DNA from: an uncultured Clostridia bacterium
Lineage (GTDB): Bacteria > Bacillota > Clostridia > Christensenellales > UBA1242
NCBI GenBank assembly: GCA_949841045.1
Contig: CATKXS010000012.1
Location: 1-37,983 of the forward strand
DNA: 37,983 nucleotides
Reading direction: 5' to 3'
This document shows, piece after piece, positions 1 to 35,270 of the stretch; within the stretch, counting starts at the first letter, position 1, and every line of letters starts with the position of its first letter. A program made the position numbers and the translations under genes. Under the pieces are notes generated by a model. It had not been told where the DNA came from. It was given only the letters and a program-made list of their open reading frames with translations, and searched no databases.

Positions 1-1678
1 CATTACTCCCATTTACTTCATGGTCATCTAAGTATATACAAGCAGAAGCTAAATCTACCTTCCAACCCGCAAACTTATATCCCTGTCTACTGAAAGCATT
101 AGGGTATAAATTTTGAGCTTCGTTAAAGGTGAAATTCTGGTTTTCCATACTTCCACTGCCTTCTATTACGTTGTATTTTACAGTGTAGTTATTTTTTACC
201 CAGTTTGGAGTTAAAGTTTGATTTTCGGCAATGTCCCAATTTCTTGCACTAGTTCCATCAGTGTTATAATATTTATAACCGTTGGCACCATAGTAACCCT
301 CAAATGTAAAACCTGTTCTAAATGGAGGAGTTATTGCTGTCATTGGCTGACCAAAAGTTACATCTGCACTTCCATTTCCTCCTCTACCAATATCAGCAAG
401 AGAATTATCGAAATTTACCCTATACTCATTAGGCGTCCACTGCGCGTAAAGCGTCAGCACATTGCTTTCATCACGTTTTGGGTCAAAGTCAATCCCGTAA
501 GTGGTATTTGCAGAAGTATATCTCGTCCCCGTCCCATCTTGTTTTGTATTCCAGCTATCGAAGACATATCCAGTTCGGACTGGCACATTCGAGGAGACCT
601 TAATTAGACGTGGAGTGTATGTTCCTCCTCCGTATTTCATATATTGTGCTGTTGAACTGCTTGAAATAGGTTTCCCACTTTGAGCTGCCCCTCCATTCAA
701 ATTATAACTTATTCTTAAATCTCTTTTATAAATCAATCTATATTCGCCAGCATCTATGTTAGTAAAATACTTACCCACTGCGTATTGTGCTTCCATAGTT
801 GCATAATTACTGGTTATCCAGTCGCTATCATTCCAATAACTAGGCTTCCATTCGTAACTCGAATAAGTGTTGCTTGGCCTAAAAAGAGTATAGCCCGTTC
901 CTGCAGTATAAGTAATCTTTCTACTTTGTGCGGTAAAATTATTATCATAATATTTGTAATTAACACTATAGTTTACTTTTGCATTGTTAAAAAGTAAAAT
1001 TTTAGGAGTAAATCCCCATTGTGTAAAGACTGTGTCTATATCGTCAACATTAACTGTCCATTGGCCAGTCGTTCCATTACAAACTTTTTCATATCTTTGT
1101 TCGCTAGAATCATCTTCGTCACTATAACTGCCGTAATATTCATATACACCGCCAAATTGTCCTCCAGCTATATCCTCAAAAGCAAATATTAGATTTCTAT
1201 ACATAGGCAAAGTACCAACGGGTGTATAATCCCAAAGTTCAGAACCTCCATTATTTCTCCAGTCTCCGCTACTAAGCGCGTTGTTTCGAGCCGTCTCACT
1301 ATCAAACCATATTAACAAACAATCCGCATAATATGAACCATATTCATATTGCAAAAATGAGGCAAAAAATTTTTGAGATATAACGGGAAGTATTGGGTTT
1401 GCATAATATGCGACATTTCCCTTAATACCTGCTGCGCCATGAAAAACTGGCATCGTATCCTTTTCTAAATTACCGCCGGAATCATATACTTCTTCATATC
1501 TATCTTGTACCGAAGAATCAAGAATTGTGGTAATAAAAAATTTTAATGAATATGTACTCGCGGACTGAGCTTCTTTAACCGGATTTTTAGAACTAAAATC
1601 TCCTATAAGCAAAGAGCCACAAACAAAAAGAGTAATTAAAAATATAAATAATGGACAATATTTTATTATCTTTTTCAT
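1..1678 (-). CDS. Secreted surface protein with InlB B-type (Listeria-Bacteroides) repeats, truncated at the left window edge
   Basis: Open frame from ATG at 1678 to the window edge (absent from the ORF track because it has no stop in the window). Starts MKKIIKYCPLFIFLITLFVCGSLLIG (signal peptide); contains RISYNLNGG...VPVRTGYVFDSWNTKQDGTG...LTLYAQWTPNEYRVNF and ...YKFAGW, typical of InlB B-repeats. RBS GGGAG five nt upstream of ATG. Confidence 0.85.
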   Translation of the reverse strand, partial: MKKIIKYCPLFIFLITLFVCGSLLIGDFSSKNPVKEAQSASTYSLKFFITTILDSSVQDRYEEVYDSGGNLEKDTMPVFHGAAGIKGNVAYYANPILPVISQKFFASFLQYEYGSYYADCLLIWFDSETARNNALSSGDWRNNGGSELWDYTPVGTLPMYRNLIFAFEDIAGGQFGGVYEYYGSYSDEDDSSEQRYEKVCNGTTGQWTVNVDDIDTVFTQWGFTPKILLFNNAKVNYSVNYKYYDNNFTAQSRKITYTAGTGYTLFRPSNTYSSYEWKPSYWNDSDWITSNYATMEAQYAVGKYFTNIDAGEYRLIYKRDLRISYNLNGGAAQSGKPISSSSTAQYMKYGGGTYTPRLIKVSSNVPVRTGYVFDSWNTKQDGTGTRYTSANTTYGIDFDPKRDESNVLTLYAQWTPNEYRVNFDNSLADIGRGGNGSADVTFGQPMTAITPPFRTGFTFEGYYGANGYKYYNTDGTSARNWDIAENQTLTPNWVKNNYTVKYNVIEGSGSMENQNFTFNEAQNLYPNAFSRQGYKFAGWKVDLASACIYLDDHEVNGSN

Positions 1679-1696
1679 ATTCACTCCCATAATTTA

Positions 1697-1723
1697 ATTT
1701 TACCCCCCCCCGAAAAAAGTCAA
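1697..1723 (-). promoter_or_regulatory. Putative sigma-A-type promoter with a G9 tract in its spacer
   Basis: Minus strand: TTGACT - TTTTTCGGGGGGGGG (15 nt) - TAAAAT, immediately upstream of the surface-protein RBS and ATG. Confidence 0.5.
1703..1711 (-). repeat. Homopolymer G9 tract (C9 on + strand), promoter-located candidate contingency repeat
   Basis: taccccccccccgaaaaaag region read directly; nine C on + strand. Confidence 0.9.
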
Positions 1724-1870
1724 GCATTTTACCATAGGTTTAAGCATTGTTTAAAACCTTTCTTTTTTAGTTTCGGTGGTAAGTCATTATTACTCGTACA
1801 TTTATCTTCTGCATTTTGTAGTATTTTATCATATTTTGTCGAAAAATAAAATTAATTTATACAAGTATTG

Positions 1871-1910
1871 AAAAAAAATTGGCAATTATTCAAAAATGAA
1901 TAATTGCCAA
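1871..1910 (-). terminator. Rho-independent terminator-like hairpin
   Basis: TTGGCAATTATTCA-AAAA-TGAATAATTGCCAA followed on the minus strand by an eight-T run; downstream of gltX. Confidence 0.6.
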
Positions 1911-1962
1911 GTCTAAATTTCATTTTAACTAAAAAAAGCTCACACAAATTGTGTGAACTATT

Positions 1963-22680: not shown

Positions 22681-23463
22681 TTAACTAAAAAATTTAGAAA
22701 GTTCTTTTGCTCTTTCAAGGCTTTCTTTATAGAATTCAACTACTGACTTTTCTAGATATTGATACCTATAACAGCTCTCCAAAGTTATTGGTCCGTCATA
22801 TCCGGCGTTTAACAAACTTTCAATTACCCCCCCCCACTTAATAGTGCCGTCAAAAGGCAAAAGGTGTAAATCGTCAGATTTGTCGTTATCGTGCAGGTGA
22901 ACTGCAAAGATTTTATCTTTAAACTTGTCCCAGCTGAACTTATCGTCATAATGACAATGGCAATGACCTGAATCATAACAAACGCCAGCGTTTTTATTTT
23001 TAATTCTGTCAAGTAGGTATTCAAGATAGCCAAATATTTTATTGTTTTCAAAGGCTACTTTAATACCAAGCTTTTCAGCATAATCAACAACTTTTTTTAG
23101 TCTTTTTACACCTATTTCACTTGGGGCTGGTGCAACCGATTTGCTTGACAAATGCATAATAACCATTGGAATATTATTTTTCCTTATCTCATCTAAATCT
23201 TTAAGATAATTTTTTACAAGTTCATTACCGCTCTCATCGTCAATCCAAATATTATTAATTCCTTTATAACCTAGATGAGCAAACTCAATTTCAAGTCCAA
23301 GTTCTCTGCAAAGATTTACCTGCTGTTGTTGAGAAAATGACCAGTCTTTATCGTACCATTGTACAAACACGCCGTTGAAGCCCGCTTCCTTAATTGCATA
23401 AATAGTGTCCTCAACAGTTACATTTTTATTGTCGTTTTGTACACATTGTATTATTTTTCTCAT
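22681..23463 (-). CDS. Sugar phosphate isomerase/epimerase-family (AP-endonuclease-2-like TIM barrel) protein containing a G9 tract
   Basis: GFNGVFVQWYD, VAFENNKIFGYLEYLLD, GVCYDSGHCHCHYDDKFSW, FAVHLHDNDKSDDLHLLPFDGTIKWGGVIESLLNAGYDGPITLE. Confidence 0.82.
   Translation of the reverse strand: MRKIIQCVQNDNKNVTVEDTIYAIKEAGFNGVFVQWYDKDWSFSQQQQVNLCRELGLEIEFAHLGYKGINNIWIDDESGNELVKNYLKDLDEIRKNNIPMVIMHLSSKSVAPAPSEIGVKRLKKVVDYAEKLGIKVAFENNKIFGYLEYLLDRIKNKNAGVCYDSGHCHCHYDDKFSWDKFKDKIFAVHLHDNDKSDDLHLLPFDGTIKWGGVIESLLNAGYDGPITLESCYRYQYLEKSVVEFYKESLERAKELSKFFS
22827..22835 (-). repeat. Homopolymer G9 tract inside a CDS
   Basis: Coding strand AAG TGG GGG GGG GTA ATT GAA (K W G G V I E). Confidence 0.9.
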
Positions 23464-33716: not shown

Positions 33717-35270
33717 CTAAAAACCTCCATACATAAATGGTGCCGAGCTATACATGTCGCCATAAACGCCAAATATTACAACAAACAAAATTAGAGATAT
33801 GTAAATAAGCCATCTCACTGGAAAAACAAAGGTATCAATCTTGTCACGAATGTTTATTTTCTTTTCTTTCAATATGTCCACTATAACCATTATAACAACG
33901 GCAACCATAAGCACAACTACCTCTTTATAGTCAAGCCCAAGCCCCAAAAGTGAACCTTTATATGGAGTAAATAAAGAACCTAAGATATAGAAAGCGTCTG
34001 AAAGAGTGTTTGCCCCAAATATCGTTTCGCCTACAAGAATTATGATGAGAGTTCTTGCCCGCCTAACCATATTAAGCCAAGTTGAATCTGGATTGACTTT
34101 CATTTTTGCCCACATCTTTTTAAACAGTGGTTCCATAAGCATGCCAAATGCGATGATAACAAAATAGTATAGTCCATATACAATGTACTTCCATTCTGGC
34201 CCATGCCATAAACCATTACATAGCCATACGCAAAATAGAGCGACAATAGTTGGCAATGTTTTAGTAAAGTGGTTCTTATGTTTTTTCTTTACAGCCTTTG
34301 TAAACTTTTTCATTCCACTAGTCAGTGCCACAGAATAAAAAATATATTCCTTAAACCAAAGGCCAAGTGTTATGTGCCACCTTTGCCAAAATTCCTGAGG
34401 ACCTTTTGCAAAGAATGGTTGGCGAAAGTTTTCTGGAAGTTTAATCCCAAACATTTCAGCAATACCCAGCGAAATATCCATAAACCCAGAAAAGTCAGCA
34501 TAAAGCTGGAGTGTGTAGCCAAGTATAAATACTAAACTACCCCCCCCCGAGAAATTAGTAGGGTTTGCTGCTATCGTTTTAACTGCTAGGAAAACCCTAT
34601 CCGCTATGACAAGTTTTTTAAATAACCCCCAAATAACCCTTTGCCCGCCATGAGCAAGATTTTTATATTCTGCCTTATGACCTTCAGTAATCTGCTTGCC
34701 GTCCTGGTCGTATCTAAGAATTGGACCTTCAACTATGCTTGCAAAGAAAGTTAAAAACGCGAGGATTTTAAAAAAGTTGCGTTCGGCAGGATACTTTTTT
34801 CTATGTACATCAACTAGGTAACCGATTGCCGACAAAGTATAGAAAGAAATTCCTAGTGGCAAAAAGAGTTTTAATCCTCTGAAAGTAAGACCTGCATTAA
34901 AGAGGTTTAAAAAAGAGATAAATGATTCTCCAAAAAAGTTAAAATATTTCAAAAAGCCAAGTATGGCAAGATTGAACAAAATTGTAACAACCATTGACGC
35001 TTTGTTTAAGCGTTTGATTTTCTTTTTATCTTCTTTTGTAAGCTCGGGATTTTGACTTATCTTATCATTCCTCTTTTGAATTCCAAGTGCAGAGAAGTAA
35101 ACACCGATAGCGGTGGTTATAGCAAAAACCAAAAGATATTTATCTATTGCACAATAAAAAATTATACTAACGCATAAAAGAACTATCCACCTAAACCTGA
35201 GTGGAATTATGTAATAAAAAACAAGTGATAATAAGACTGCAACTGCAAGATATAATAATAACTGATTCAC
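33717..35270 (-). CDS. DltB-like MBOAT-family membrane O-acyltransferase, with an internal G9 tract
   Basis: GISFYTLSAIGYLVDVHRKKYPAERNF, YADFSGFMDISLGIAEMFGIKLPENFRQPFFAKGPQEFWQRWHITLGLWFKEYIFYSVALT, CNGLWHGPEWKYIVYGLYY. Confidence 0.9.
   Translation of the reverse strand: MNQLLLYLAVAVLLSLVFYYIIPLRFRWIVLLCVSIIFYCAIDKYLLVFAITTAIGVYFSALGIQKRNDKISQNPELTKEDKKKIKRLNKASMVVTILFNLAILGFLKYFNFFGESFISFLNLFNAGLTFRGLKLFLPLGISFYTLSAIGYLVDVHRKKYPAERNFFKILAFLTFFASIVEGPILRYDQDGKQITEGHKAEYKNLAHGGQRVIWGLFKKLVIADRVFLAVKTIAANPTNFSGGGSLVFILGYTLQLYADFSGFMDISLGIAEMFGIKLPENFRQPFFAKGPQEFWQRWHITLGLWFKEYIFYSVALTSGMKKFTKAVKKKHKNHFTKTLPTIVALFCVWLCNGLWHGPEWKYIVYGLYYFVIIAFGMLMEPLFKKMWAKMKVNPDSTWLNMVRRARTLIIILVGETIFGANTLSDAFYILGSLFTPYKGSLLGLGLDYKEVVVLMVAVVIMVIVDILKEKKINIRDKIDTFVFPVRWLIYISLILFVVIFGVYGDMYSSAPFMYGGF
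34540..34548 (-). repeat. Homopolymer G9 tract inside the MBOAT CDS
   Basis: Coding strand TTC TCG GGG GGG GGT AGT TTA (F S G G G S L). Confidence 0.9.

Follow-up and report, generated by a model that had tools for sequence, protein, structure and literature searches.

The surface-protein gene and its promoter

The stretch of DNA analysed here, called the window, comprises 37,983 nucleotides from an uncultured Clostridia bacterium. At its left edge lies a gene for a secreted surface protein on the minus strand, and the contig ends inside this gene, at base 1. The protein carries Listeria-Bacteroides/InlB repeats (Pfam Flg_new, 6.4e-12; TIGR02543 above its cut-off). The earliest ATG of the long open reading frame is at 1690; the ATG at 1678 is the one with proper Shine-Dalgarno spacing and a signal peptide after it. 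From 1678 the minus strand reads ATGAAAAAG, and the N-terminus of the protein, MKKIIKYCPLFIFLITLFVCGSLLIG, is signal-peptide-like. At positions 2-196 of the window the end of the protein is identical over about 60 residues to the protein of L025 on contig C8, and both contigs break there. These identical ends indicate that the surface genes have 3′ parts in common.

Table 1. Features of the surface-protein locus, in window coordinates
Feature	Position	Strand	Basis or remark
Secreted InlB/List_Bact_rpt surface protein, start ATG 1678, 3′ end past contig	2..1678	-	profile matches
Shine-Dalgarno GGGAG, ATG 5 nt further on	1684..1688	-	sequence
-10 hexamer TAAAAT	1697..1702	-	sequence
Spacer of 15 nt, TTTTTC + G9 (G9 tract 1703-1711)	1703..1717	-	sequence
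-35 hexamer TTGACT	1718..1723	-	sequence
Alternative -10, TAAAAT overlapping on the upstream side, preceded by TG	1726..1731	-	not conserved in G043
Intrinsic terminator, 14-bp stem + T8	1879..1910	-	fold z -5.8
Intrinsic terminator, 10-bp stem + T6, directly 3′ of gltX	1937..1959	-	fold z -4.4

Positions 1723 to 1697 of the minus strand read TTGACT-TTTTTCGGGGGGGGG-TAAAAT, with the hexamers 15 nt apart. In minus-strand order the region consists of GGTAAAATGC, TTGACT, TTTTTC, GGGGGGGGG, TAAAAT, TAAATTAT, GGGAG, TGAAT and the gene start. A homopolymer tract is thus present between the -35 and -10 hexamers of a sigma-70/A-type promoter, and a control search of the genome with the reversed pattern returned 0 sites. 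An earlier note on this DNA had described the same arrangement, with a 15-nt spacer at G9 and a GGGAG ribosome-binding site before the ATG of an InlB-repeat protein, and both sequence and coordinates bear it out exactly. It had also counted this tract as the third G9 run. Three G9 runs are indeed present in the 38-kb window (34% G+C), against 0.00 expected from 100 dinucleotide-preserving shuffles of the window, in which zero runs arose. The other two, at 22827-22835 and 34540-34548, lie within open frames, in a xylose-isomerase-like TIM-barrel gene and an MBOAT acyltransferase gene respectively. Each of these frames is open with G9; with G7, G8, G10 or G11 it closes within a few codons.

Upstream of the surface gene, on the same strand, lies gltX, with its stop codon at 1963. 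Two intrinsic terminators stand between the two genes (Table 1) and shield the surface gene from upstream transcription, so that its own promoter has to lie in the remaining stretch of about 155 bases. Other promoter candidates in that stretch are weaker, with 9/12 matches. No G/C run of at least 7 was found near gltX in seven related genomes that have this gene, which indicates that the surface gene and its promoter are an accessory insertion.

Tract promoters in the genome and its relatives

The host genome (1.16 Mb in 34 contigs, 95% complete) contains 29 runs of at least eight G or C, where about 1.4 are expected from composition. By hand classification, with poly-C spacers and hexamers slightly further from consensus also admitted, about 17 lie in -35/-10 spacers, nine are coding and three are elsewhere or unclear; promoter spacers make up a tiny fraction of the genome, yet hold about 17 of the 29 tracts. 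The pattern TTGAC-N-G6+-N-TANAAT alone matched nine sites, and its reversed form none. An example of a poly-C spacer in this genome is TTGACA-AAT-C9-GAT-TAAAAT.

Three coding tracts (L010, L017 and L040, in G000 contigs C5, C7 and C13) consist of a G9-G10 run at a common position in the signal-peptide-coding sequence (..LALTLPNS-GG..). They are likely to be a translational version of the switch discussed below. At L039 the tract promoter occurs in two tandem copies about 260 bp apart. The first copy has G9, and TAGCGC stands where its -10 hexamer would be.

Across the genus, 240 tract promoters were found in 40 of 61 genomes (141 poly-G, the number of sites listed, and 99 poly-C), and the reversed patterns gave one match in total. 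Poly-G spacers occur in 27 of the 61 genomes and poly-C spacers in 31. The highest numbers per genome are 23 in G032 and 16 each in G008 and G043; in G008 and G032 the promoters belong to a cassette, over 70 bp long, that is repeated and so raises the counts. With copies collapsed, 182 distinct contexts are left, and the same design is found in different cassettes in different species.

For the family and the class we used a stricter pattern, G8+ with TATAAT. In the family it matched 32 of 198 genomes, belonging to 17 of 42 genera, with a control of 0 and tracts reaching G15. In the class it matched eight of 392 genomes. Besides the genome of the window these were another member of the family, two genomes from the same order in which the pattern occurs several times, and four in which it matched once. 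Those relatives that carry a name are MAGs of uncultured Clostridia, and some come from rabbit and deer guts. A search of viral contigs for the promoter core found none.

Most products of poly-G promoters are secreted proteins with InlB repeats or of the BspA-LRR type. In the host genome 8/9 poly-G genes encode a strong hydrophobic segment at the N-terminus, as do 12/13 in G043 and 8/9 in G032, compared with 3/15 genes behind ordinary promoters. When poly-C sites and weaker hexamers are included, the figure for the host genome is 11/17 (p = 0.016); poly-C sites, which drive a mixed gene set, are therefore less clearly tied to the surface. The InlB-repeat group comprises 18 products (from G000, G043 and G056), the protein of the window among them. 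A second group comprises 11 products in G008, G032 and G060, and its tested G032 member is a BspA-type LRR protein. Also among the products is a lipoprotein common to three species. For the L036 lipoprotein clear relatives were found only in G032 and G060, and an orthologous promoter series built on it was dropped because these were too few.

Spacer length, tract length and the proposed switch

In the host genome the 95 listed ordinary promoters, which match TTGACN-N-TATAAT and lack a tract, have a modal spacer of 17 nt, with 51 at 17, 15 at 16 and 12 at 18 nt. In G043, 34 of 62 ordinary promoters, counted by eye among the matches listed, have 17 nt. Tract promoters of the genus are distributed differently: 57 have spacers of 15 nt, 89 of 16, 30 of 17, 10 of 18, 20 of 19 and 18 of 20 nt, giving a main peak at 15-16 nt and a lesser one at 19-20 nt. 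Among TATAAT sites with spacers of 14-20 nt, 63/88 ordinary promoters and 8/110 tract promoters have 17-18 nt (p = 3e-22). Among the tract promoters of the host genome nine have 15-nt spacers, three have 16-nt spacers and one has an 18-nt spacer. Most assembled alleles are therefore one to two bases below, or two to three above, the usual distance. After random reassignment of tract lengths to contexts, 16.7 TATAAT sites would be expected to have exactly 17 nt, and 5 do; the shortage reaches significance over all sites and loses it when each genome contributes one (P = 0.13). We accordingly do not take the shortage of 17-nt spacers to prove that these promoters are off by default, and regard the default-off state as a lead only; the separation between ordinary spacers of 17 nt and tract spacers of 15-16 or 19-20 nt offers a handle on the question.

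We consider it probable that the G9 tract makes the spacer of this sigma-A-type surface-protein promoter variable in length, and that the promoter belongs to a set, spread across the lineage, whose members are switched by slippage independently of each other. Replication slippage would add G residues to the tract or remove them, moving the distance between -35 and -10 around the 17-nt optimum. Promoter strength would shift with it, each surface protein would go up or down on its own, and mixed populations of cells would result. The earlier note had suggested such tuning by spacer slippage, of the porA/opc type, and for the class as a whole the sequences support it: the roughly 17 sites in the genome and 240 in the genus, the mostly secreted products, the off-optimum spacers and the copies of differing length all point the same way. 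On the same reasoning cells would differ in tract length, G9 would give low transcription and G10 or G11 higher, and the variation in the surface would be of benefit in the gut.

In A-form geometry poly(dG).poly(dC) has a shorter rise and lower twist, and would need a longer spacer. We therefore rejected the idea that such geometry compensates for the short spacer, as it predicts a longer one, not a shorter one. That the G9 allele is weakly expressed, as the earlier note had it, is only plausible. The size of the effect is uncertain, because promoters in E. coli with consensus hexamers express well with spacers of 15-19 bp (PMC8695583). In contrast to this tolerance, the opc promoter of Neisseria meningitidis responds strongly to the gain of one C: its poly-C tract gives low expression at C11 and high expression at C12 (PMC3447861).

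The concentration of assembled alleles at 15-16 nt would also suit a fixed short-spacer regulon, in which 15-16 nt is the working distance and the tract a structural or regulator-binding element of constant length. So would the retention of the core in G043 despite unrelated flanks: in G043 and G000 the flanks differ by at least 27 changes in 106 bases, and recent copying does not explain the repeated core there. We nevertheless judge this reading unlikely, since the tract is anything but constant. Either G or C can form it, its distance from the -10 hexamer is anywhere from 0 to 8 bases, and its length ranges from 7 to 11 bases in the genus and up to 15 in the family. Nor do tract length and the length of the remaining spacer compensate each other (Spearman 0.03 for G tracts and -0.03 for C tracts), which is expected under drift by slippage. 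Near-identical cassettes within a genome carry G7, G8 or G9, where assembled lengths are MAG consensus values that may be off by one. Copies within a genome served here as a proxy for instability of tract length. In G008, 58 pairs of cassettes have at most 10 changes per 106 flanking bases, and tract length is unequal in 34 of them; these pairs are not independent and the comparison is descriptive. One example, L083 and L091, combines one flanking-base change with G8 in one copy and G7 in the other. Loss of mismatch repair was ruled out as the source of instability, as MutS1 is present in all 61 genomes of the genus.

A second alternative places the start at the overlapping upstream sequence TATGGTAAAAT, an extended -10 promoter, and makes the tract part of the 5′ leader, where it would act, if at all, after initiation. 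Two 9/12 matches have TG ahead of their second hexamer and end at 1726, and five of nine poly-G sites of the host genome have a TANAWT upstream of the -35 hexamer, at a distance of no more than 20 nt. The same motif, however, precedes 6/20 ordinary promoters, but only 2/16 tract promoters of G043. It is therefore not a common design, unlike TTGAC-tract-TANAAT, and we hold a start at the upstream sequence to be quite improbable. That the tracts are side products, of biased mutation, of the copying of cassettes or of assembly, with no switch function, is least credible of all: the cassette copies in G008 and G032 do inflate the counts and MAG homopolymers may be miscounted by a base, but the crowding of tracts into promoter spacers, the recurrence of one design in the cassettes of different species, the 182 distinct contexts and the spread over 17 genera argue against it.

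Switching of promoter strength by the spacer tract, the reading that we prefer, has well-described precedents. In Neisseria meningitidis a poly-G tract between -35 and -10 causes promoter phase variation of porA (PMC3899988). The likeness to porA and opc lies in a G or C homopolymer within a surface-protein promoter, where in those genes a change of one base alters transcription (PMC3899988, PMC3447861). They differ in that few loci are involved there and expression was measured, whereas here about 17 loci in one genome, and a whole lineage of uncultured gut Clostridia, are known by their sequence. The vlp genes of Mycoplasma hyorhinis form a surface-gene family in which each gene has its own promoter homopolymer and switches independently (PMC10502178), although the tracts there are poly-A and belong to one family at one locus, and here they are poly-G or poly-C and serve several surface families that are unrelated to each other and lie dispersed in the genome. 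In Mycoplasma mycoides vmm and Haemophilus influenzae hifA/hifB the number of spacer repeats likewise switches a surface structure (PMC10502178, PMC3899988), but there the repeats are dinucleotides and only single loci are involved, whereas here G/C runs occur at many loci. Slippage of G/C runs is also shared with the coding homopolymers of Campylobacter and Helicobacter (see also the survey PMC2831843), of which the host genome has counterparts; they switch a reading frame, whereas the site in the window is a promoter.

The mechanism is thus already known, and its reuse at many loci across a family of uncultured Clostridia is, as far as we found, undescribed: our search of the open-access literature found no published report of the tract promoters of this lineage. 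Promoter-spacer slippage has so far been known from few loci in few pathogens. We put forward, tentatively and with rather less confidence than the reading for the single promoter, that in this lineage of small-genome gut Clostridia the set forms a genome-wide combinatorial surface switch, with 10-25 independent tract promoters in each genome of the species richest in them, tract lengths kept mostly off the 17-nt optimum, a low default state and a minority of cells turned up by changes of one or two bases. If this is true, gut commensals would provide a natural series of one switch, in poly-G and poly-C versions and in independent cassettes, and single assembled genomes of such species would conceal large surface heterogeneity. 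Counts of tract length in existing metagenome reads could test the prediction.

Elements around the tract promoters

In several species a structured repeat of about 170-290 nt lies between the tract promoter and the gene. It has the form TTGG(G/T)GAGGC(A/G)CC...CCTCTCCC...AAGGACCCCAAGGGG, gives strong folds, and showed no match to Rfam at E values up to 1. It is present at L039, where it separates the tandem promoter copies, at L063, L068, L069 and L083-L094, and also at L141 and L144, and more copies occur in G043 and G030.

The cassettes of G032 and G008 (L061-L080 and L081-L096) have a long perfect palindrome, AGGGTATCC..GGATACCCTATTT, directly after the -10 hexamer. From its position it would overlap the start site, and an operator, a terminator and a leader hairpin are all candidates for its role. 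Upstream of and within the -35 hexamer of the same cassettes (L061-L096) is an imperfect inverted repeat that ends at the tract. Its arms are GCATTTTTTG..CAAAAAATGC in G032 and GCCCTTTTTG..CAAAAAGGGC in G008 and, compared by eye, they have changed jointly between the species.
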